DNA from: Magnetococcales bacterium
GTDB lineage: Bacteria; Pseudomonadota; Magnetococcia; Magnetococcales; Magnetaquicoccaceae
Direction: 5' to 3'
Length of the DNA stretch: 64,000 bases
Assembly (NCBI GenBank): GCA_015231755.1
Contig: JADGAZ010000007.1
Span: 1-64,000 of the forward strand
Both the position numbers and the translations under genes were made by a program. Below are positions 34,507-47,152 of the stretch, piece by piece (the first letter of the stretch is position 1; every line of letters starts with the position of its first letter). A model generated the notes under the pieces. That model did no database searches, had not been told where the DNA came from, and saw nothing but the letters and a program-made list of their open reading frames with translations.

Positions 34507-35078
34507 GAATATTCCTTTATGCAATAAGCGGATTTGATCGATAATGTCGCCCGATTGATACTGAAAGTCGTTTTTGTTTGTGATGGAAATGATGCATTCC
34601 TGTACAGCCATTCAAAATATACGTTAGCAGCTTCTTGACGACAATGCAACCATCGTCTGAACATTTTTTGTAGTCAATATAACGACATAACAGACTGTAA
34701 ATATTTCTGCGTCCTGTTTGTATAACTTTTAAGATACATGAATCCGGAAAAGTCTGAAAACCGATTGATTCAAATCCCGGGTTTAATTTTGATCCGGATC
34801 AAGATTGGCCGGAGTCTGCTTTGAGTTCAGGTTTTTCTGTCGAGCCAATGAGTGATCGAATTTTCAGCAAAATTGGCAAAAAAAAGTGAAACGTTTTACT
34901 GGTTGCGGTGATTTGGCGGGCAAAGGGTGTGTGAGTTTATATTGATAGAAGTTGTGATGGGGAGGGAATTGAAAAATTATTGAACGGTACGATAATTGCA
35001 TTGTCTTGCTCCCGATGCGGTCCCCCGCAGCGGGCAGCGTTTGAAAATTGACAGCTTGAAAAAATGAGGATGACCAAA
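34507..35078. other. AT-rich divergent intergenic region
   Basis: Between the HD-GYP gene and the J-domain gene, over 500 bp carry no convincing gene. It is much richer in A and T than the surroundings. It contains the perfect TTGAT-N4-ATCAA site listed separately, and probably promoters for both divergent genes. Confidence 0.6.
34789..34802. promoter_or_regulatory. Perfect FNR/ANR-type palindrome
   Basis: TTGATCCGGATCAA is a perfect dyad matching the FNR consensus TTGAT-N4-ATCAA. It lies about 280 bp from both divergent starts, in the AT-rich region. Oxygen control of either the HD-GYP gene or the J-domain/TPR/mamK stretch would suit a microaerophilic organism. The distance from the starts is longer than usual. 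Confidence 0.55.
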
Positions 35079-36632
35079 ATGAACTTTCCCATTCCCTGGC
35101 GAACGGTTTCCACGGATCCCTCCCCCATCGCGCCCGCCAGACGGGTGGAAGAGGCGGTATTGCCTCCGGGGATGCGGCGGGTGAAGAGTACCTGCAAGGC
35201 GTGCGGCAAGTCGTTGGGCATCAAGTATCCGGAGGCGGTCACCTGCTGGAAGGTGCAGTGTCCCTCTTGTGGTCAGGTGATCGCCATCGAGCTGGTGGGG
35301 GGGCGGAAGTGTCTGGTCTTCAACGTCCAGGGGCGGCGGACCGTGGAGCGGATCGGTTTGACCGATCAGCGGCGGCGTTTTTTTCGCGCCCGCTGTTTCG
35401 TCTGCGACGAGACCCTGGTGGTGCCGGAGAGCGAAGCGGGTCGTCTGCGGGGATGTCATGGTTGCGGGTTGGAGTACACGGTGCGGGAAGAAGGCGAGGT
35501 CTATTACGAGACCGCGGTGCGCATCAACGACGAGATGACCACCTATCGGGAGAAGGTGCAGGAGTCTTCCGGTTATCTGACCAACAAGAACACCGCTTTT
35601 TTTCTCGGTGAGGAGCCGGGTCCGGGCCAGAAGGGGGGGCGGAGCGGGATCGAGCCGAGCGCGACCCTGTTGGCATTGCGGCGGGAAAGCGAGCAGTTGC
35701 GGGTGGATTATCGTCAGGCGTTGGCGGAAAAGGAGGCTTTGACCCGCAAGCTGGCCCAGGAGCAGGAACGGGTGAGCGCCTTGGAAAACGGAGCGGAAGC
35801 GGGGCTGGAGGTTTGTGTCACCGGGTTGCAGGCCCGGCTCGCCGAATTGGTCCGGGAGCGGGACCGGATCGGGGAGGAGCGGGATGTGTTGCAAAACCGG
35901 ATGCAGGCCCACAACGAGGCGTTGCGCGCTCTGGATGAGGAGTTGGCCAAACGGGCCCGGTTGGAGAGTCGGCTGACCCAGTTGGAAGCGTCATTGCGTC
36001 GCAGCGAGGAGAGCGTCGAGGTGTTGCGGCGGGAGCGGGACGGGGCGCGTCTGGTTTTGCAGGCGAGCGAGACCGCCCAGGCCCAGGCCAAAGAGGGGTT
36101 GCGTCAGGCGTTGGAGGAGCGCAAGGGGTTGGAGGCCCGTCTGCTGGCGGCCCGCGAAGCGGTGGCGCGCCTGGAAGAGCGGTTGGCCCGGGCCGATCAG
36201 GGGAGTGGATCGGTTCACGGGGCGCGGTTGCGGGAGTTGGAGGCGGAAAACGCCCGTCTGGCCGCCCGTGTGGCGGAAGGCGAGCGGTTGTTGCAGCGGG
36301 CCCGGGATCTGGAGCGGGAGGTGGAACGGTTGCGGGCTCCGGGAGCCGGGGAGATGACCGAGTTGGAGGAGGGGGAGAGCTGGTATTGCGAGGAGGGGCA
36401 GGAGGGATGCATCCGGGCCGACAGCGAAGTGGGCATGGCCCGTCGTGTTCTGGGGCTCAAGGGGCAACCCACGGTGGCGCGTATCAAGACCGCGTTCCGG
36501 CGACGGGTGAAACGTTATCATCCCGACAGGGTTACCTCTTTGGGGTTGGACCTGCGGGATCTGGCCCACAAGAAGATGCAGGAGATCAACCGGGCCTATG
36601 GCCTTTTGATGAAAGAGTACGGCAATGGATAG
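35079..36632 (+). CDS. Double zinc-ribbon, coiled-coil protein with C-terminal J domain
   Basis: A 517-residue cytoplasmic protein of unusual order. The N-terminus holds two treble-clef/zinc-ribbon pairs, CKAC...CPSC (about 38-67) and CFVC...CHGC (about 108-133). A Glu/Arg/Ala-rich coiled coil runs from about 200 to 420. The end is a J domain with the HPD motif in RVKRYHPDRV (about 482) and helix III/IV MQEINRAYGLLMKEYG. It should recruit DnaK to an unknown client. I chose the ATG with GAGG 8 nt upstream; two in-frame ATGs lie 9 and 15 nt earlier with weaker signals. It overlaps the next gene by 8 nt. Confidence 0.8.
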   Translation: MNFPIPWRTVSTDPSPIAPARRVEEAVLPPGMRRVKSTCKACGKSLGIKYPEAVTCWKVQCPSCGQVIAIELVGGRKCLVFNVQGRRTVERIGLTDQRRRFFRARCFVCDETLVVPESEAGRLRGCHGCGLEYTVREEGEVYYETAVRINDEMTTYREKVQESSGYLTNKNTAFFLGEEPGPGQKGGRSGIEPSATLLALRRESEQLRVDYRQALAEKEALTRKLAQEQERVSALENGAEAGLEVCVTGLQARLAELVRERDRIGEERDVLQNRMQAHNEALRALDEELAKRARLESRLTQLEASLRRSEESVEVLRRERDGARLVLQASETAQAQAKEGLRQALEERKGLEARLLAAREAVARLEERLARADQGSGSVHGARLRELEAENARLAARVAEGERLLQRARDLEREVERLRAPGAGEMTELEEGESWYCEEGQEGCIRADSEVGMARRVLGLKGQPTVARIKTAFRRRVKRYHPDRVTSLGLDLRDLAHKKMQEINRAYGLLMKEYGNG

Positions 36633-37986
36633 ACGCAAGCGTTGGATTTCCTGGTTGGGAGCGGGGTTGCTGTGCGGGGTGGCCTGGGCCGGGGAGCCGG
36701 TGGGAGGCGACGGGGCCGATCCTTTGGAGACCGGTCGGGCCTTGTCCCGGGCCGGAGCGCATGCCCGGGCGGTGGAGGCTTTCACCCAGGTGTTGCAGGG
36801 CAAAGACAGAGGCCCGGAACGGCGTCTCGGGGCGCTGGAGGGTCGGTGCGAGGCGTTGACCCGGCAATCGTTGCTCGAAAAGCGTGGGGAGTTGGCCTTG
36901 CGGGCCGTGGAGGACTGTTCCGAACGGCTCCGGTCGGAGTCGGGTGTGGCGCGGATCTGGCGTTTGCGGGGTTTGGCCCGACTGGCCGCCGGTCAGCCCG
37001 AACAGGCGTTGATCAATTTCAACCACGCCTTGCGGCTGGAACCGGATGACCGCTTGACCTTGCGGGATCGGGGGGTGGTGTTGCTGGGTCTGGGGCGGTT
37101 GGCCGAGGCCGAGGGGGATTTTCAGCGGGTGGCCCGTCTGGATCCGGATCAGGCGTGGAACCATTTCAACCGGGGACTGGTGCTGGCGCGTAACGGTCGG
37201 GTGGCGGAGGCGGCGGAGGCGTGGCGCGCCTTCGTGCGGGTCCGTGGGGAGGGATCCAGGGAGTGGCTGGCCCAGGTGGTGGCCCGTCCCGGGGGGGATC
37301 CCGACTCCAGGCGGGTGTTCGAGGCCATGGAGCGCACCGAGCCCGCGGGAGATTCTCCCCAGGGGCGGGGCGATCCGGCTTCGACAGCAGCGGCCACGGC
37401 ATCCCCGTCCGCCACTCCGGCTGCGACTCCGACAGCCACGGCCACCTCGTCTCCGTCCCCCCCCTCTTCGGGCGCCGCTCCGGCTGCGTCCGTGTCCGTC
37501 ACTCCGGCTGCGACCGCCACGGCCTCTTCGTCTTCGTCACCCGCTCCATCCCCGTCTTCTTCGGCAACCCCCTCCGAGACCCCGGCTGCGTCCGCGGCGG
37601 CCTCTCCGGCTTCGGCTGGGACTCCGGCCCCGTCGCCAGCCCCGCCCAGTGCCGTGGCGGCTTCCGAGGGCACGGGCAAGAACAAACTCCCTCCAGGTGG
37701 CGTGGCCCCATCGGCGACAGCTCCCACCAAAACAACCCTTCCGGCCTCGGCCAACGGTTATGAGGTGCGATTGGGTTCGTTTCAGGATCGGGGTAACCTG
37801 GAAGCCACGGTGCGCTCCTTGAGTCGTCTGGGTTTGACCGCCCGGGAAGAGGAGGTCACGGTGGGCGAGCGGCTGTTTTATCGTCTGGTGGCCGGACCGT
37901 TCGCCGACGAGGCCGAAGCCCGTTCGGTCATGGAACGGGCCGCCAAATTGCCCGGGGTACATCCGGAACCGGTGCGCGCCCGTTGA
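36625..37986 (+). CDS. Exported TPR protein with C-terminal SPOR domain
   Basis: A 453-residue periplasmic protein: signal peptide (about 1-22), TPR repeats (about 30-215, with ALINFNHALRLEPDDRLTLR), a long Ala/Pro/Ser/Thr-rich linker (about 245-370), and a SPOR domain (about 375-450: GYEVRLGSFQDRGNLEA to LFYRLVAGPFADEAEAR) that binds denuded septal peptidoglycan. It is coupled by an 8-nt overlap to the J-domain gene and precedes mamK by 360 bp. Septal targeting fits division or cell-envelope organisation; the mamK proximity hints at filament or chain partition, which is speculation. Confidence 0.85.
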   Translation: MDRRKRWISWLGAGLLCGVAWAGEPVGGDGADPLETGRALSRAGAHARAVEAFTQVLQGKDRGPERRLGALEGRCEALTRQSLLEKRGELALRAVEDCSERLRSESGVARIWRLRGLARLAAGQPEQALINFNHALRLEPDDRLTLRDRGVVLLGLGRLAEAEGDFQRVARLDPDQAWNHFNRGLVLARNGRVAEAAEAWRAFVRVRGEGSREWLAQVVARPGGDPDSRRVFEAMERTEPAGDSPQGRGDPASTAAATASPSATPAATPTATATSSPSPPSSGAAPAASVSVTPAATATASSSSSPAPSPSSSATPSETPAASAAASPASAGTPAPSPAPPSAVAASEGTGKNKLPPGGVAPSATAPTKTTLPASANGYEVRLGSFQDRGNLEATVRSLSRLGLTAREEEVTVGERLFYRLVAGPFADEAEARSVMERAAKLPGVHPEPVRAR

Positions 37987-38345: not shown

Positions 38346-39383
38346 ATGACGAGCGGGAATGGCGGTAGGGCATTGCTTTTGGGCATAGACATGGGCACGG
38401 CGCGGACCGCGGTGGTGAGCAACCGGCAATACAAGGCGCTGGTGAGTTCCGTGGTCGGTTATCCCAGAGACATCATCGGGGTGAAGATCCTCAATCGCAC
38501 CCAGGTGATCGGTGCCGAGGCGATCGAAATGCGCTCCTGTCTGGATCTGCATTTTCCGTTGCAAGACGGGGTGCTGAAAGAGGCCAGCGACAAGGATCTG
38601 GAAGCGGCCCAGGAACTGCTGAAACATATCATCGCACTGGCGGATCCCAAATCCGGAGACAAAATCTGCGGCATCATCGGGGTTCCGGCCCGGGCTTCGG
38701 TCTCCAACAAGGGGCAGTTGCTCAAGATCGCCGGGGAACTCATGGATATCGCCATGGTGGTCTCCGAGCCGTTCATGGTGGCCTACGGCCTGAATCGACT
38801 CAACAACGCCATCGTGATCGACGTGGGCGCCGGAACCATCGACCTGTGCGCCCTGCGGGGCACGGTGCCGGGTCCGGAAAATCAGTTGAGCATCCTCAAG
38901 GGGGGCAACTACATCGACCGGCTTTTGGAGGCCGCGATCCGCGACGCCTACGCCGGGGTGCAGATCGATCGTTATCTGGCCCAGGCCATCAAGGAGCAGT
39001 ATGCCTTTGTCGGCGAGCCGCAACAGCGTGTGGTGGTGCCCTTGCGGGTCAACGGCAAGCCGGCGGAGGTGGATGTCACCGACGCGGTGCGGGTGACTTG
39101 CGAAACCATCGTGGTGGATATCGTCGAAAACATCAAACGCATGCTGCCGTTGTTCGATCCGGAAAACCAGTCCGCGGCCTTGGCCAATCTGATCCTGGCG
39201 GGCGGGGGTTCCCGCATCCGGGGTCTGGGCGCCATGATCGAGTCCCAGTTGCGGGACTACGGCCAAGTAAAGGTGACCACGGTGGAAGACCCGGAGTTCG
39301 CCGGCGCGGACGGGGCGTTGCGTCTGGCCATGGAACTTCCGCCGGAATATTGGGATCAGATCGGGGAGAAGGTGGGGCAGTGA
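38346..39383 (+). CDS. mamK: MamK, bacterial actin of magnetosome chains
   Basis: A 345-residue actin-superfamily ATPase. Phosphate-1 is LLLGIDMGTARTAVVSN, the SVVGYPRD stretch follows as in MamK, and IGVPARAS, VVSEPFMVAYGL (with the catalytic-type Glu), IDVGAGTIDLCALRGTVPGP (phosphate-2) and LILAGGGSRIRGL (adenosine motif) are all there, together with the C-terminal ALRLAMELPPEYW. I judge these residues to match MamK rather than MreB, ParM or MamK-unrelated actins. MamK forms filaments that align and partition magnetosomes. It starts after a GGGAGG site. No mamE, mamB or mamM is present in this window, so this is either a dispersed mamK or a paralogue outside the main cluster. Confidence 0.93.
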   Translation: MTSGNGGRALLLGIDMGTARTAVVSNRQYKALVSSVVGYPRDIIGVKILNRTQVIGAEAIEMRSCLDLHFPLQDGVLKEASDKDLEAAQELLKHIIALADPKSGDKICGIIGVPARASVSNKGQLLKIAGELMDIAMVVSEPFMVAYGLNRLNNAIVIDVGAGTIDLCALRGTVPGPENQLSILKGGNYIDRLLEAAIRDAYAGVQIDRYLAQAIKEQYAFVGEPQQRVVVPLRVNGKPAEVDVTDAVRVTCETIVVDIVENIKRMLPLFDPENQSAALANLILAGGGSRIRGLGAMIESQLRDYGQVKVTTVEDPEFAGADGALRLAMELPPEYWDQIGEKVGQ

Positions 39384-39480: not shown

Positions 39481-39803
39481 GTGGAATCCTGGAATCGACC
39501 CAAGAGAAATTCTTTTAATCCGAAAAGAAAAATGCGTCCTGCGCCGCAGAGTGAGCAGGATCAGATTTTTCTGAATGCGTTGGCGGCACGGGTGGGTTAT
39601 GGAGGCAACCCGGAACACAAACGCAATCCAGGTGATTTTGGTTTGACACCACCCAGCCATCCAAGACCCGACAAGACGTTGTGCGATCAGGTGGGAATTT
39701 TTACCCGGGCAGCGGCTTTGTGCCTGCTCAGGACAGGAATCAAGAGGGGTTTCGGCAGGAAGTGCTGAACCGATGGAACAAAACAAAGTGTGAAAAGTCA
39801 TGA
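39481..39803 (+). pseudogene. Decayed small gene (NPEHK-type family), internal deletion with frameshift
   Basis: From a GTG with an AAGGAGAAGG site, the frame reads the N-terminal part (LNALAARVGYGGNPEHK, PRPDKTLCDQ, ALCLLRTGIKRG) and then stops early at 39768. A different frame carries what looks like the expected C-terminal end, GFRQEVLNRW, and ends in a TGA that overlaps the ATG of the next gene as ATGA. I infer that a central segment was lost and the two ends joined out of frame. A conservative reading is simply a short hypothetical protein ending at 39768. Confidence 0.55.
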
Positions 39804-41119
39804 GCGGATCTTTTGTCTTCTCGCCTGAGTGGTCGCTTACAGATTTCGGTCCTGAAGAAATGCGACGGACCTCGGGCACTTTGTCCATCAATCTGAACGA
39901 TCGTCTGGTGACACGGGTGGAAGAGGCATTGTCCAGGTCGGTCCGCACGACGGTACGGGTATCCTGCTATCCCCTGGCTCTTTGGTTCGCATCCTCGTGG
40001 TGGCGTTTGTGCTGGGAGTTGGCTCCATCATGGAGAAAATCCCAGACCGATTGGTCCTTGTCGCATGAGATGAGCAGTGCGGGTCATGGTTATCTCTGGC
40101 CACCCATGCGTTTTGAATCGGATGGCGAGATGGTGAGTGTCAGCTGTCAGTCTGCGCTTTCTTCCGGACACGAACCGATCCGTTATTTGACTGAGTTTCG
40201 TGATGTCGCCATTCCTGTACCTGTACTGACAGCAGCCATTGAGTCGTTCGTGCAAACGGTTTTGGCCCGCCTGGAAGTCGTTGGGATCCAAGACACGGAG
40301 TTGCACGCGCTTTGGCAGGAGCTGTCGAATGAAAGACGGGATCCAAGAATCGCGCTTTATCGCAAGCTGGAGGCCGGGCTTGGTTTTGATCCGGATGACG
40401 CGCCAGAAGATATTGTTGATTTTTTTATGGGATTGAGTGCGGAAGCGGGGAAGGCGGCGGTTGGGGAGTTGGCTGCGGCTTGTGCAAGCAGGGACTCTTC
40501 TTTTGTATGGGATGCGCTTGACAAGAGCAGGAGTTCCGGGGGCGTGCCCGGCAGTTTCTCCGAGCTTAGAACATTAAAGATAAAAAACACCCGTCATGAT
40601 TTTCCCTGGGATCGGGGCAGACAGTTGGCACGGGCAGCGCGCTGCGCCATGGGTCATGGGAATGATCCGATTTCAGACAAGAATCTTTGTGACCTGCTGG
40701 GTTTGCGGGAAGCGGAGTTGACCGACAGCGCGTCTCCCCCCGTGGATGCTTTGCCTTGGAGTCTGGCCATTCGGGAACCGCAGCGGGATGAGGCGCGTTT
40801 GCTGTTTCGGCGCAAGCACCGGTGTGGGCGGCGATTTGAAATGGCGCGGTGGTTGGGTGATTTTCTGGCCGACCCCCAGGAGCGGTGGTTTCCGGCAACG
40901 GATACCAAGACAGCCCGTCAGAAGCAACAACGCGCCTTTGCCGCCGAATATCTGGCTCCGATCGATGAATTGGGCGCCTTTCTGGGAGAGGCGATCACCG
41001 ACGAAGAGCGTATTGAAGAGGCCGGAAGGCATTTTGGCGTCTCGGCTCTCACGGTCAAAAGTCACTTGGCCAACCATGGTCTGGTGCATCCGGACGAGGT
41101 GAGGACTCCCTCTTATTGA
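39800..41119 (+). CDS. ImmA/IrrE-like protein with degenerate peptidase motif
   Basis: A 439-residue soluble protein. In the C-terminal part, CGRRFEMARWLGDFLAD (about 338-354) lies where ImmA/IrrE peptidases have RF..AHELGH, but the zinc-binding His residues are gone. The end, FGVSALTVKSHLANHGLV, is the closing helix-turn-helix-like segment of that fold. The N-terminal 280 residues contain no motif I know. Its start overlaps the ancestral stop of the decayed upstream gene, so the two were once a coupled pair. It is probably an accessory-island gene; a regulatory or immunity role is a guess. Confidence 0.7.
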   Translation: MSGSFVFSPEWSLTDFGPEEMRRTSGTLSINLNDRLVTRVEEALSRSVRTTVRVSCYPLALWFASSWWRLCWELAPSWRKSQTDWSLSHEMSSAGHGYLWPPMRFESDGEMVSVSCQSALSSGHEPIRYLTEFRDVAIPVPVLTAAIESFVQTVLARLEVVGIQDTELHALWQELSNERRDPRIALYRKLEAGLGFDPDDAPEDIVDFFMGLSAEAGKAAVGELAAACASRDSSFVWDALDKSRSSGGVPGSFSELRTLKIKNTRHDFPWDRGRQLARAARCAMGHGNDPISDKNLCDLLGLREAELTDSASPPVDALPWSLAIREPQRDEARLLFRRKHRCGRRFEMARWLGDFLADPQERWFPATDTKTARQKQQRAFAAEYLAPIDELGAFLGEAITDEERIEEAGRHFGVSALTVKSHLANHGLVHPDEVRTPSY

Positions 41120-41125
41120 TGCGTT

Positions 41126-42172
41126 TCATTCCCCTGCGGTTTTGGGTGCCGCCAGTGCGGCCTTGAGTTCCCGGCGGATCTGTTTCAATCCCGGCTCTTC
41201 GTTTTTGGGGAAGGGGATCGGGCGGCACAGGCGCAGACACTTCAACCCCACCCGGGCGGTGAACAGGGCATTGCTGGCCGCCTGACCCGCGCTGGCCAGG
41301 GCCACTCCCGCCAGAGTCTCCCCCAACGCCTCGCTGGCGGATTTGGCGAGTACCTCTCCGGCCCCGGCGGCCAGCATTCCTTCCGCCAGATGACGCATCA
41401 GCACCACGGTTCCCGCCGGTCCGGGACGCAGACCGTAGATGGTCGCGATCTCCCGCATCATGCGGGTATTGCGCCACAAGAACAGCAGCGCGTCCAGAAT
41501 CGCCAACGGACTCAGCACCGCCAGAAAGGCCGCCGAGGCGGCGTGACGGCCAATCACCCGCAAGGCCGCCTCATCCAGGGGACGCAGGGCGCGGGAGGAG
41601 AAGAGTTCCAGCATCTCCCGGTCTCCCAGATGGGCTTGATTCATGGCCCGGAAGGCTTCCAGGGAGTCCCGCAGTTCCGGGCGATGGCCGTGCTGGTCCG
41701 TCAACTGGGCAATCAGAGGCTGGGCATTGCCGAAAGAACCCCCGGACATCAGCCGCGCCGCCTCGCTGCGTATCGCCCCCTGGGCCCGCAGTTCCCGCAG
41801 GGCCAGGAACTCCCGTGTCACCGCCGTGACCAGCAAAGTCAGCAGCACCGCGATCAATCCCGAGAAAAAGACCCCCAACACCACATGCAGACGGAACTGA
41901 TTCACCAGAAACAGGGCGCTTTCCTCCAGAATGAGTCCGGTCAGAAGCAGGGTCGCGCTCCAGAAAAACCAGCGCCAGCGCCGTCCGGAGTGGGTGAAGG
42001 CCAGCTCTTCCGGGGTGGGATCGGGATCCAGGATCTCTTCTTCGGGTTCCGGGGGGTGGTTTTCGTGTTCGGTCAGGGGCAGACAGACCGGACCTGTGGC
42101 ACGGGGGGTCTCTTCCGGAGGCGGCTCCGGGGACAGCTCCACAGGTGGGGTCCAGCGGGGGCGCAGATTCAT
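41126..42172 (-). CDS. ycjF: YcjF/DUF697 membrane protein
   Basis: A 348-residue inner-membrane protein of the YcjF type (DUF697). The first 80 residues are Pro/Glu-rich cytoplasmic. Two hydrophobic helices (about 88-110, 117-140) come next, then a helical domain and the DUF697 region with AAFLAVLSPLAILDALLFLW and MMREIATIYGLRPG (about 210-250). Its start overlaps the YcjX stop (ATGA), as in the usual ycjX-ycjF pair. In E. coli ycjXF is linked to the phage-shock response; the biochemical role is not settled. Confidence 0.88.
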   Translation of the reverse strand: MNLRPRWTPPVELSPEPPPEETPRATGPVCLPLTEHENHPPEPEEEILDPDPTPEELAFTHSGRRWRWFFWSATLLLTGLILEESALFLVNQFRLHVVLGVFFSGLIAVLLTLLVTAVTREFLALRELRAQGAIRSEAARLMSGGSFGNAQPLIAQLTDQHGHRPELRDSLEAFRAMNQAHLGDREMLELFSSRALRPLDEAALRVIGRHAASAAFLAVLSPLAILDALLFLWRNTRMMREIATIYGLRPGPAGTVVLMRHLAEGMLAAGAGEVLAKSASEALGETLAGVALASAGQAASNALFTARVGLKCLRLCRPIPFPKNEEPGLKQIRRELKAALAAPKTAGE

Positions 42173-43611
42173 CGCAGTTTATCTCCCAGCAAAAATTCCA
42201 AAGCCTGATCCATGCGGATGTGGGGTGGCGTGGGGCTTTCGGCATCCGGCGGACGGCGTGGCTCGAACTCCATGAAATGAAAACGATGGGTATCCCACTC
42301 TTCGGGGTCGGGGAGGGTTTCCGGGATTTCGCCGGGAAACAGCAAAGTCTCTTTTTCCCGCCCCTTGGGGGTGCCCTGAACAAAAGAAAGGCGTCGTCCG
42401 TTGTGATCCCGCACCACGGTACGGGTGCAGCGCAACGAGGCCAGGGACTGGCTTTGGATCTCCACCCCCAGAAACGAGGCGTCGTTGGCCGAACGGGCCA
42501 CCAACCGACGCAACAGCCGTTCCATGTTGTGATGCTGATTGGCGGCCACATAGTCGGCCTTGGTGGCGGCGAACAGCAGACGGTCGATGCGGGGACTGAA
42601 CAGCCGGGTCAACAGGCTGGAAGGACCATGGCGGAAATTTTCCAGAATGGCTTCCAGGGAGGTGTGCATGTCGGCAAAGGCGGTCGGCCCCCGGTTGAGG
42701 GCTCCCAGCAGGTCCAGCAGCACGATCTGACGGTCGAAACGGGAGAAATGACGCTTGAGAAATCCTTCGGCTACCAGTTTGAGATAGGAGTCGAAACGTC
42801 TGGCCATGGCCTCGCGGATGGATCCGGCGGGAGAGCCTTCCGGACCCGGCGGGGGCAGAGGACAGAAGGTGAGCAGCGGCGCCCCCTTGAGGTCGCCGGG
42901 AATGGTGAAGCGTCCGGGTTGCAGAAAGCTCAATCCCACCTTGGGATGTTTGCAGGCCATGAGAAATTCGGTATAACTCTCCGCCGCGCCACGCATGATC
43001 TCTTCGCTGGCGGGTTCCGCCGGGTTCAAGGCGGCCAGATGATCGCGCCAGCGACCGGAAAGGGTACGCCGTGGCTCCTCTTCGCACAGTTTCAAGGTCA
43101 GCTCCGACCAGGAGTCGAAGGAGTGCTTGAGCATGGGCAGATCCAGCAGCCACTCGCCGGGATAGTCGATGACATCCAGGTAGAGGGTGGAGGAGGCGGA
43201 AAGCTTGCTGCTCAACAGTCCGGCGGGACGGAAGCGGATGGCCAGACGGATTTCGCTCAAGGCCTCGGTGGGCATGGGCCAGGCGGGCTTGTTGGCCAGC
43301 AGGGTGCGGATGTGACGCTCGTAGGGAAAAGCGGGAATGTCCAGATCCGGTTGCATCATGATCCGGGTGCCCAGCAGACGGTTTTCTTCCGCCGCCTTCA
43401 GCCCCGGCAGGTTGGAACCTTGCAGGGCGTGCAGCAGATGATGGATCAAGGTGGTGGTGAAAACCGTCTTGCCGCTTTGGTTCAGGCCGGTGACCGCCAG
43501 TCGCACCGTGCGATCCAGGGTGAGATGGAGCCAGTCATCCAGTTGGGTGCCCGCCTGATTGACATGACGGGTGAGTCGTTCCGGGTTCCAATCCTTGAAG
43601 GGATTTTTCAT
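42169..43611 (-). CDS. ycjX: YcjX family P-loop GTPase/ATPase
   Basis: A 480-residue YcjX (DUF463) protein. The P-loop is VTGLNQSGKTVFTTTLIHHL (about 39-58), the DxxG-like site is VIDYPGEWLLDLP (about 155-167), and the C-terminal part has the LFAATKADYVAANQHHNM segment (about 351-368) corresponding to NKxD. Members are compared to dynamin-like or Rag GTPases. The gene overlaps both neighbours by 4 nt, giving an operon with the MotB-like gene before it and ycjF after it. That a channel-type pair leads the operon is unusual. Confidence 0.92.
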   Translation of the reverse strand: MKNPFKDWNPERLTRHVNQAGTQLDDWLHLTLDRTVRLAVTGLNQSGKTVFTTTLIHHLLHALQGSNLPGLKAAEENRLLGTRIMMQPDLDIPAFPYERHIRTLLANKPAWPMPTEALSEIRLAIRFRPAGLLSSKLSASSTLYLDVIDYPGEWLLDLPMLKHSFDSWSELTLKLCEEEPRRTLSGRWRDHLAALNPAEPASEEIMRGAAESYTEFLMACKHPKVGLSFLQPGRFTIPGDLKGAPLLTFCPLPPPGPEGSPAGSIREAMARRFDSYLKLVAEGFLKRHFSRFDRQIVLLDLLGALNRGPTAFADMHTSLEAILENFRHGPSSLLTRLFSPRIDRLLFAATKADYVAANQHHNMERLLRRLVARSANDASFLGVEIQSQSLASLRCTRTVVRDHNGRRLSFVQGTPKGREKETLLFPGEIPETLPDPEEWDTHRFHFMEFEPRRPPDAESPTPPHIRMDQALEFLLGDKLR

Positions 43612-44405
43612 GGTTTGATCGTGGGCTGACGTGGAAGGGGTGGGGAAGGATGATGGGCGTCACCGGTCGGGGAACTCCCCGGAGCCGGAGCGGATCCGAT
43701 CCATTTGAGGGTGGCGTTTTCCTGTTTCAGGCGTTCCAGTTCTCGGTTGAGCCGGGTCACCTCGTCGGACAGGGGGCGCTGTTGCGGCTCCGAGGTCGCT
43801 GCCGGCGGAGCCGCGACAGGTAGAGTCGCGCCACCGTTGCGACTGGTGAGGGCGTTCAGGTCGTGGCCCATCTGAACGATCCGATTCTCCCGCTCCTGGA
43901 GTCTGGCTTCCAACTCCACCCGCAGACGGCGCGCCTCCCCGGTCTCCCGGGTCGCCTCCTCGATGCGGGTGTTCAGGCGGGCGATTTCGGTTTGCAGACG
44001 GTCGATGCGGGCGGTCTGGCCTTCCTGTTCGGCTTCCGCCAGCACAGGGGGGGATGCGGCGTTTTTATCCCCTTTCCACTGTTTCAGCATGGCGGCGTTG
44101 CGGGCGGTCAGATCCGCCACCTCGCCTCGCAACAAGGCCACTCCGGTCCATTCCGCCGCACGGGAAGAGGGAGGCGTGGTCTCCCAGTCCTCCAGACGGC
44201 CCGCTCCCTGGCTATCCCCTTGAATCAGACCCTGAATCCGTCCCTCCCGCACCTGGAGTTTGGCGGTCAATTCGGCATTGAGGGACTTCAGACGGCGTGT
44301 CTCCGCCTCGACGGGTTCCTGGGTAGCGAGCTGGGGCAGGGCGCTCACCAGAATCACCACCAGAAAGACCATCCCCATCAAAAGATCAAACCATAATATC
44401 CGCAT
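43608..44405 (-). CDS. MotB/ZorB-like single-helix coiled-coil protein
   Basis: A 265-residue protein beginning MRILWFDLLMGMVFLVVILV: one N-terminal helix with an Asp near its start, as in MotB, ExbD and ZorB where that Asp carries protons. The rest is a coiled coil in two blocks (about 35-80 and 120-240, e.g. ETRRLKSLNAELTAKLQVRE), ending in a short Pro/Ser tail. No OmpA-type peptidoglycan-binding domain is present. The ATG before RILWFD is the likely start; longer versions lack a leader. It overlaps the ycjX start as ATGA. Confidence 0.65.
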   Translation of the reverse strand: MRILWFDLLMGMVFLVVILVSALPQLATQEPVEAETRRLKSLNAELTAKLQVREGRIQGLIQGDSQGAGRLEDWETTPPSSRAAEWTGVALLRGEVADLTARNAAMLKQWKGDKNAASPPVLAEAEQEGQTARIDRLQTEIARLNTRIEEATRETGEARRLRVELEARLQERENRIVQMGHDLNALTSRNGGATLPVAAPPAATSEPQQRPLSDEVTRLNRELERLKQENATLKWIGSAPAPGSSPTGDAHHPSPPLPRQPTIKP

Positions 44406-44634
44406 ACCCAACCCGATGTTACCACTTCTTTGGAAGGTTATGATCGGTGCCCAAGGGCTTCGTTCCTGGACCCCACCAGGGGGATGATCCCCCTGGACCC
44501 GCAATTGTTTTGGAATGATGGATCCTGCCAAAGTGGAATCCGAGGGATTCATCTCCCAGAATCTGTTCTTTATATAATCATTACTGTTTTTCAGTTACTA
44601 AAACTATTGAAAAAAAAGAGGGGGTCTGGGGGAT
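44406..44634. repeat. Palindromic repeat cluster, GGGTCTGGG family
   Basis: Two elements lie here. CCAGGGGGATGATCCCCCTGG at about 44476-44496 is a perfect hairpin. From 44606 the run ATTGAAAAAAAAGAGGGGGT, CTGGGGGATTCATCCCCCAG repeats the left half of the 9.46-kb copy; it continues into the ZorA-like gene, supplying that gene's last codons and stop. The gap splits an otherwise compact operon and may attenuate it. Confidence 0.75.
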
Positions 44635-46236
44635 TCATCCCCCAGGGTTTGTCCTTTTCCCAGCCCCCCGTGAGCGCATGAATTGGTCGAACAATCGGGG
44701 CAGTTCTTTTTTTTCGGGTTCGGGTTCCGGGGTGATCAGGAGTGAGTCGGCCCGGTCCCGGTCCAGGCCCGAGAGCATCTGGGAGACCACCTGTTGATTG
44801 TTTTGCGCCAGGCGGTTGAGCAGGGCTTCCGCCGAGCGGGAGAAGGTGCCTTCCATGCGGGTGTTGAAGTGTTCCACCGCGTGGACCAGGCTTTCCACCG
44901 CCTCCCGACCGGCGCGGATCGATCCTTCGCTGGCGCGGCGGGTTTCGTTGGCCAGGGCGCTCAGGCCGTTGAGGCTTTCGGATTGTTTTTCCAGGGCGCG
45001 GGCCGCCAGTTCCATGCGATCGATGATGCGCATCCAGGATTCTTGTTCCGGGCGGCTCAGGTGTTGCGAGCCGTCCACGGTTCGGGCGCCACCCGGTTGC
45101 AGCTCCCGGGCCAGATGATGGGCCAGTTCCCGGGCCAGATGGCGTCCCTCGTCCCGCAGGGATTCGATCATCGGGCGCCATACGGCGGGATCCGGGGCGG
45201 AAGCCGGAGCCGTCGCCACCCAGTGGGTCACTTCGCCTTCCCGGGGGAGGGCTTCCGGCAGGGGGGCGTGACTGCTCTCCAGGATGGGTTGCAGGCTTTG
45301 GGTCAGGGATTCCAGCAGGTGTCCGAGCCGTTTGCCCTCGTTCAGCAAGGTGGCGTTCAGGGTGCGCAGCTCCGCCGTGTTTTCTTTGGGATCCGGCAGG
45401 CGGGTTTGGATCAGGGTGAGCAGCTTGTGGTTTTCCGCCCGCAACGCCTGGATCAACGGCTCCAGGGTGGCGGTGGAGAGGGTGACAGCCAGGGGGGCGG
45501 GTTCGGCTTCCGGCGCGACAGGGTGACGGAGGCGATCCATGGCGGTCATCTGTTCGTGGGCCAGGCGTTCCGGGGTGATGAACACCAGCCGGATGGCGAG
45601 TTGGTCGCACCACAGCTCCAGCTCTTTTTCGAGGCGCCGTTGCCACACCCGGGTACGCCATCCCAGCAACCAGGCGGACAAAAATCCGGCGATCGAGGCG
45701 AGAAATTTGAGGGATGCCATGGCCAACACCCCCCGCAGGGCCATGCGCACCGTCTCCGGATCCCCGGAGAGCAGGCCCCGGGAGGCGTAATGCAGCGCTC
45801 CCACCAGTCCCACGAAGGTGAAAAGCAAGCCGGATCCCGCCAGATGGGTGGGCAGGGTTTGCAGGCGTTGCGCCCGGGGGTGATGGGCGGTGAGGGGGGC
45901 GAGGCGGAAAAACCGATCGGGTCGTTGACCATACAAAATCATGGTTCCGGGGGATTCGGTGGGAATCCAGGTGGCGGTGAAGTGACGCCAGGCTTTGGCC
46001 AGATCCGGCAGCACGTTCAATCCGGCGTCCAGATGGGGCAGATGGGGGGGGAATTCCGCAGGGGAATCCGGGGTTTCGTCGAGCAGTTGCCGGGCCAGTC
46101 GGATCTGGGCCAACAGGGGATCCAGGTAGGTGTCCCGGGCGAACCACCATGCCGCCCCGGCCCACAGGGGGATCAGCAGGGCCGGAATCCACGGGGCGAA
46201 CGGGTGATTGACGACGGTGACGATCCACTCGAACAT
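44635..46236 (-). CDS. ZorA/MotA-like membrane channel protein
   Basis: A 533-residue protein. An N-terminal helix (about 14-32) is followed by a cytoplasmic stretch and then the paired helices LAGSGLLFTFVGLVGALHYA (about 131-150) and LAMASLKFLASIAGFLSAWL (about 170-190), which correspond to the conserved ion-channel helices of MotA/TolQ/ExbB/ZorA. The C-terminal 300 residues are helical/coiled with many Glu, Arg and Leu, resembling the long intracellular tail of ZorA. Together with the MotB-like gene it suggests a proton-driven stator. ZorC, ZorD and ZorE are absent. The last residues (NPGG) are encoded by the palindromic repeat. Confidence 0.65.
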   Translation of the reverse strand: MFEWIVTVVNHPFAPWIPALLIPLWAGAAWWFARDTYLDPLLAQIRLARQLLDETPDSPAEFPPHLPHLDAGLNVLPDLAKAWRHFTATWIPTESPGTMILYGQRPDRFFRLAPLTAHHPRAQRLQTLPTHLAGSGLLFTFVGLVGALHYASRGLLSGDPETVRMALRGVLAMASLKFLASIAGFLSAWLLGWRTRVWQRRLEKELELWCDQLAIRLVFITPERLAHEQMTAMDRLRHPVAPEAEPAPLAVTLSTATLEPLIQALRAENHKLLTLIQTRLPDPKENTAELRTLNATLLNEGKRLGHLLESLTQSLQPILESSHAPLPEALPREGEVTHWVATAPASAPDPAVWRPMIESLRDEGRHLARELAHHLARELQPGGARTVDGSQHLSRPEQESWMRIIDRMELAARALEKQSESLNGLSALANETRRASEGSIRAGREAVESLVHAVEHFNTRMEGTFSRSAEALLNRLAQNNQQVVSQMLSGLDRDRADSLLITPEPEPEKKELPRLFDQFMRSRGAGKRTNPGG

Positions 46237-46273
46237 GGGGGTTGAGGCTCCTGGCGCGACAGTGTTTTTTTAT

Positions 46274-47152
46274 TTAAGAGGGATCGGATTCCAGGGCGTG
46301 CCAGCGCCGGAACGCCTCACCCACCACGGCCTTGACGTGGGGATAGTAGCCGCCATAGCGTTCCCGCAGGGAACCGGTGGCCAGTCCTTCGTCGGTGGCC
46401 GAGGCCAGAGCCTGGGCATTGGGCAGCACCTGCTCGAACACCGGAATCTGCAACCGTTCGGCCATGGCGTGGACCCAGGGAATGTTGCGTTGGTACTGCT
46501 GACCCCGTTTGTCCGCCCGGTTGAGGAGCATGCCCAGGCATACGGGTCGTTTGCCATCGCCTTGTTCCCGGGCGTAGCGGATCATTTCCACGGTATCGGG
46601 CATGGCGTCGATGGAGAAGCGGGAGACTTCCACCGGGCTGATCACCGAATCGCTCATGATCAGGCCGTTGACTGCCAGCAGGTTGCGTGCGTCGATGTTG
46701 CCGGGCAGATCCAGCAAGGCGATGTCGAAGGATTGGGCCAGCAGGGGTTTGAGCCGGTCCCGGAGGATGGTGAGGCGATGGAGGGGATTGGCCTCGAAGG
46801 CGAAGGCGCTGTTTTTGTCCGAGATCATCACCCCCACCTCGGAAACCGGGGTGGCTCTTCCCTTGACCGTGCCTTTGGGACGGGTGAACACACAGGATTC
46901 CAGGGCCACCGTGCGTCCCAGATCCAGATCCCGGGCCAGGGGGCCGAGGGTGTGGCCCGAGGCTCGGGCCTGGGCCAGTCCCGCGCTTCCCAGCAGGGAG
47001 GCTCCGCAGGAACCCTGGGCATCCAGATCCAGCACCACCACCTTCATGGGGCGGCCCCGCACCGCCAAAGACGCCAAAAAATCGGCCATGAACACGGCGA
47101 GCGTCGATTTCCCGACACCGCCTTTGTTGTTGTAGATGGCGATGGTGTACAT
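46274..47152 (-). CDS. ParA/MinD-family ATPase (first copy)
   Basis: A 292-residue ATPase. The deviant Walker A is IYNNKGGVGKSTLAVFMADF at the N-terminus, with the signature Lys, then VVLDLDAQGSCGASL as Walker A' and IALLDLPGNIDARNLLAVN as Walker B. No ParB or parS-like gene is near. It lies 37 bp upstream of the ZorA-like gene, reading the same way, and probably belongs to that operon. The family positions plasmids, protein clusters and organelles; the cargo here is unknown. Confidence 0.9.
   Translation of the reverse strand: MYTIAIYNNKGGVGKSTLAVFMADFLASLAVRGRPMKVVVLDLDAQGSCGASLLGSAGLAQARASGHTLGPLARDLDLGRTVALESCVFTRPKGTVKGRATPVSEVGVMISDKNSAFAFEANPLHRLTILRDRLKPLLAQSFDIALLDLPGNIDARNLLAVNGLIMSDSVISPVEVSRFSIDAMPDTVEMIRYAREQGDGKRPVCLGMLLNRADKRGQQYQRNIPWVHAMAERLQIPVFEQVLPNAQALASATDEGLATGSLRERYGGYYPHVKAVVGEAFRRWHALESDPS

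Follow-up and report, generated by a model that had tools for sequence, protein, structure and literature searches.

The stretch of DNA that we analysed, referred to here as the window, is 64,000 nucleotides long and carries a mamK gene preceded by J-domain and TPR-SPOR genes and followed by a gene without a recognised domain and an operon (41126-47152) of YcjF-, YcjX-, ZorB-, ZorA- and ParA-like genes (Table 1).

Table 1. Genes in and around the mamK locus of the window
Feature	Position	Strand	Remarks
Zinc-ribbon, coiled-coil, J-domain protein	35064..36632	+	Single-copy, family-wide gene
TPR-SPOR protein	36625..37986	+	8-bp overlap with the J-domain gene, with which it travels
mamK, native lineage (by tree placement), extra copy outside the magnetosome cluster	38346..39383	+	345 aa
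439-aa protein, no Pfam/NCBIfam match	39800..41119	+	Of the compared loci, only that of the close relative G011 has a homologue
DUF697 protein (YcjF-like)	41126..42172	-	Adjoins the native cluster of G004 and G007
YcjX-like (DUF463) protein	42169..43611	-	Adjoins the native cluster of G004 and G007
ZorB/MotB-like membrane protein	43608..44552	-	Channel aspartate conserved (ILWFDLLMGMVF)
ZorA/MotA/ExbB-like membrane protein, cytoplasmic helical tail	44635..46236	-	PADLOC ZorA, E=4e-24
ParA/MinD-like ATPase	46274..47152	-	Adjoins the native cluster of G004, G005 and G007, and also the UR-1-type orphan mamK

The mamK product scored 506.8 bits against the NCBIfam MamK model, above the curated cutoff of 400, as against 192.7 bits for BeeR (below the cutoff of 530) and 69 bits for Pfam MreB_Mbl, and its best matches in a sequence search of the PDB were the MamK filament structures 5JYG/5LJV (E ~1e-120). 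The equivalents of the catalytic residues Asp161 and Glu143, mutation of which is said to abolish MamK ATPase activity (PMC5059902), are both retained. We placed the protein in an 88-row tree, to which a collection of named genomes contributed 77 rows; it fell within a 27-row clade (SH-aLRT 100) comprising MamK of Magnetococcia, Alpha- and Gammaproteobacteria, and others, apart from the MamK-like proteins of other phyla. The grouping with MreB or Alp actins that the original prediction had named as fatal to it was not recovered; the tree contained no MreB row, and the separation from MreB is therefore one of scores. Profile score, sequence matches to solved structures, and tree position thus uphold the MamK identity that had been proposed, and the ORF is, as judged from its sequence, a true MamK. 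As had also been claimed, no core mam genes were found within the 64-kb window, and the gene lies outside a magnetosome gene cluster; cluster location is not a strict criterion for MamK, because both AMB-1 and UR-1 have mamK outside the cluster.

Magnetosome genes elsewhere in the genome

A search of the whole genome (3.84 Mb in 44 contigs; 97.8% complete) disclosed three MamK proteins, on contigs C7 (the window), C12, and C22. The last of these contigs carries a full magnetosome cluster with its own mamK, in the order mamF-H-I-E-[666-aa protein]-K-F-L-M-N-O-P-A-Q-B-S-T. MamH, MamQ, MamM, and MamO are each encoded once, all on C22, which also holds the best MamB match, and no extra native copy of MamH, MamQ, MamM, or MamO emerged from the whole-genome search. 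The window mamK is consequently an extra copy in an organism with a magnetosome cluster, in agreement with one of the options originally offered, that of a second mamK-like gene; another, that the strain had lost the remaining genes, fails as worded because the C22 cluster is complete but survives in a different form, in that a native cluster was apparently lost and replaced. A MamZ-like gene is situated on a separate contig (C6:38026-39252), and the magnetosome set is therefore partly dispersed.

Genes adjoining mamK and candidate partners

The TPR-SPOR and J-domain genes lie upstream of mamK as first described, but the suggestion that these neighbours indicate filament handling at division was not sustained: the J-domain gene is present in one copy in all 18 family genomes, including two without a detected mamK, and adjoins mamK in 5 of them. 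The division link is unsupported because the J-domain gene occurs in every family genome, and we rejected the J-domain/TPR-SPOR pair as MamK partners, this gene being found throughout the family and in most genomes lying apart from mamK. In families f6 and f14 (L083:4401-5408 and L096:3521-4855), a TPR protein whose end looks SPOR-like by eye is found beside ZorB, a gene bearing the Maq signature described below, and an orphan mamK.

Downstream, the ZorA-like protein is predicted to possess the MotA/ExbB-type membrane core and cytoplasmic tail that characterise ZorA; the best PDB matches of the predicted model (mean pLDDT of 62, with a low-confidence tail) were ZorA structures 8QYD/8VVN, and the profile match to 8VVN gave an E value of 2e-9. 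The pair resembles Zorya ZorAB (PMC11890865) in this putative fold and in the channel aspartate kept by the partner but differs in sitting with ParA, YcjX, and YcjF genes and in its ZorB-like member, in which no OmpA or peptidoglycan-binding domain was found. Genes related to this operon flank clusters in several families, and across the class, with cluster-borne and orphan mamK pooled, ZorA- and ZorB-like hits were enriched approximately 16-fold near mamK (32/73 and 41/99, respectively, within 30 kb, versus ≤2.6% by area). A ZorA/ZorB-like pair also flanks the full cluster on C22 (C22:44416-49282; L010:9417-14283), and strong ZorA and ZorB matches at C1:305282-308259, away from any mamK, possibly represent a true Zorya system. 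The case for partnership of the ZorA/ZorB pair adjoining the C12 mamK was weakened, because a similar pair lies apart from mamK in G037, a complete genome, and its ZorB does so in G004 too. The account of the UR-1 island notes MotB and apolipoprotein-domain genes and does not name ZorAB (PMC6783814). Our literature search on MamK with MotA/ExbB, or magnetosomes with TolQ/ExbB, found no relevant paper.

These surroundings could be taken to mean that the orphan mamK has acquired a new, nonmagnetosome job in division or polarity or in conjunction with the adjacent ZorAB-like/ParA membrane motor: TPR-SPOR, ParA, and ZorAB-like genes adjoin it, ZorA/ZorB-like genes are enriched near mamK in the class, and constraint on the orphans is relaxed relative to that on cluster mamK. 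We regard such a change of role as unlikely, since the J-domain operon is independent of mamK, ZorAB-like genes flank clusters as well, and all mamK-bearing genomes of the class that are at least 90% complete also have a MamM or MamO match, so that no mamK-only, nonmagnetotactic genome was seen among them.

The protein at the Maq1 position on C22 (C22:36407-38407; L010:1408-3408) and its relatives share a 36-residue end signature, VPVExLGxGIxxxLGDxVGGVV. This signature is class-wide, occurring in 27/27 good genomes, and 58 of its 74 strong hits lie within 1.5 kb of a mamK; maq1 has been described as exclusive to "Ca. Magnetaquicoccaceae," with homologues in HHB-1 (PMC12791574). Farther afield, proteins approximately 40% identical to MamK from Planctomycetota, Poseidoniales, Methanoperedens, and others (L137-L197) form a separate large clade.

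Two mamK lineages and the site of a native cluster

MamK was sought in 48 genomes of the class, 27 of them of good quality, nearly all of the genomes compared being drafts or MAGs; it was present in every good-quality genome, many of which have two to three copies. The MamK tree groups the window copy with the cluster-borne mamK of G004, G006, and G007, which represent a sister genus, in a clade of 21 rows (100/99), and this clade also takes in two long-branch copies from the truA site described below (G008_C143 and G013_C52), which fall outside the C12 clade. The C22 type belongs to a 17-row clade (100/98) common to families f9, f11, and f12 and to G044 of f14, with family f4 as its sister. 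Orphan copies therefore group with the cluster-borne mamK of relatives and apart from the cluster mamK of their own genome, and the window MamK is 71% identical to the cluster-borne MamK of the sister genus and 53% identical to that of C22. Constraining all MamK rows of the family to one clade cost 107 log units and was rejected; the MamM tree divides the family in the same fashion, its one-clade constraint being rejected with a p of 1e-4, and the swap is thus seen in another cluster gene. The GC content of the C22 cluster is 0.56, versus 0.60 to 0.63 in the other stretches of the same genome that were measured, and the GC3 values of the mamK genes on C7, C12, and C22 are 0.81, 0.78, and 0.70, respectively. 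The MamK and MamM trees agree in pointing to an original, "native" cluster of the family and to a different, lower-GC cluster, common to other families, in most of its present members; by their placement, the extra mamK genes of the family are of the native lineage. Transfer of magnetosome genes in Magnetaquicoccaceae has already been inferred in an earlier report (PMC6783814).

Positional evidence points in the same direction. In G016, a member of the same genus, the truA-x20 site is occupied by mamF-H-I-E-[Maq]-K-F-L-Q-S-T-F, and the MamK of this native cluster is 82% identical to that of the window; mamM/N/O/P/A are missing from it and the completeness of the genome is 77%, and it may therefore be eroding or have been misassembled. 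At the truA site, the siblings of G016 have a single, isolated mamK with a ZorA/ZorB pair behind it, x20 being recognised in most of them, and the C12 mamK is located at this former cluster site. UR-1 and two relatives have their orphan mamK behind a Maq-like gene that diverges from ParA-ZorA-ZorB; this ParA<->[Maq-like]->mamK order recurs next to the native cluster of G004 and G007, and the shared motif LVELALMFDL backs the match, placing these orphans too at a former cluster site. The window mamK is at neither site, and derivation from the native cluster therefore needs a duplication; the most fitting interpretation is that it arose as a second copy of the native gene.

A different history would dispense with replacement altogether: the ancestor of the order may have possessed two mamK lineages, of which families lost one or the other while the cluster always remained in place, as the two to three mamK copies in many families and the older orphan clade common to f6, f7, and f14 might suggest. 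We find this quite improbable. MamM, which has no second copy in the family and is the only cluster gene besides mamK so treed, splits likewise; G004, G006, and G007 lack a C22-type copy and have the native type within the cluster; the GC content of the C22 cluster is deviant; and positional traces of the native cluster persist.

Selection and a proposed origin for the extra mamK

Pairwise dN/dS ratios were 0.065 to 0.14 for the window-type (C7-type) mamK, 0.09 to 0.14 for the C12 type, and 0.02 to 0.05 for cluster mamK; the orphan copies are under purifying selection, and their higher ratios indicate that constraint upon them is weaker. In the C12 MamK (L011:10287-11324) and its orthologues in G011 and G009, Ala replaces the catalytic Glu that all other MamK copies compared in the class keep. 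This substitution suggests that, of the three MamKs of the genome, two probably hydrolyse ATP and the third, that of C12, is probably a partner with slow or modulating action, an arrangement comparable to MamK and MamK-like in AMB-1. The AMB-1 MamK-like protein reportedly carries an active-site change comparable to that of C12 and still acts with MamK. G044, which also has a C22-type cluster, encodes a very divergent MamK with altered phosphate-binding residues on C87 (L097:2497-3606) that is possibly a decaying native copy. That the window mamK is itself a functionless relic in decay, a view to which the orphan dN/dS ratios of two to four times those of cluster mamK and the condition of the G044 copy lend some colour, is very hard to reconcile with an intact ORF, retained catalytic residues, and dN/dS ratios far below 1 across the genus.

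We consider it likely that the window encodes an additional, functional MamK that was inherited vertically from the native cluster, was kept after replacement of that cluster, and is probably engaged in chain positioning. The native cluster of the genus would have been replaced by the horizontally acquired C22 cluster, and native-lineage mamK would have stayed, one copy in place at the truA site on C12 and a second as the duplicate that now stands beside the J-domain/TPR-SPOR operon. Counting against this account are the duplication that it needs for the window copy, the incompleteness of G016 and of its native cluster, the position of the two long-branch truA copies outside the C12 clade, and the weaker constraint on the orphans. 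The window MamK most likely assembles into an actin-like filament and probably works with the C22 MamK to position or segregate magnetosome chains; a filament-forming, cooperating MamK is favoured by the constrained sequence and by the parallel with AMB-1 MamK-like.

Extra mamK genes outside the cluster are already known (PMC2818848, PMC6783814). The MamK-like protein of AMB-1 (PMC2818848) is likewise a second MamK outside the main cluster, with 54.5% identity to the cluster copy versus 53% here, but its gene shares an islet with further mam genes and was judged to be laterally acquired, whereas here the orphan would be the resident lineage and the cluster the newcomer, and the catalytic change affects the C12 copy and leaves that of the window unaltered. 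The second mamK of "Ca. Magnetaquicoccus inordinatus" UR-1 (contig RXIU01000185; PMC6783814) is from the same family and the same native clade, is 67% identical, and also occupies a contig without core mam genes; it differs in lying behind a Maq-like gene by ParA-ZorAB-like genes, whereas the window copy lies by the J-domain/TPR-SPOR genes and has no Maq neighbour. The available text of that report does not connect the extra gene with cluster replacement (PMC6783814). Several mamK copies are also found in "Ca. Etaproteobacteria," where copy number was correlated with chain form, and the portions available of that study do not explain origin or site (PMC9840458). The retention of a resident mamK after cluster replacement is, to the extent that the available parts of these sources (PMC2818848, PMC6783814, PMC9840458) allow comparison, new here.

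More tentatively, and as a possibility rather than an expectation, cluster swapping may have occurred at least twice in one family, with synthesis genes being exchangeable and a host-matched actin being kept, perhaps because it is tied to a host ParA/ZorAB-like motor. Our reading offers an account of where the extra mamK genes of magnetotactic cocci came from, provides a natural test of whether organelle synthesis genes and cytoskeleton evolve as separate modules, and brings forward two class-wide candidates for MamK partners, namely the protein bearing the Maq signature and a ZorAB-like membrane motor.
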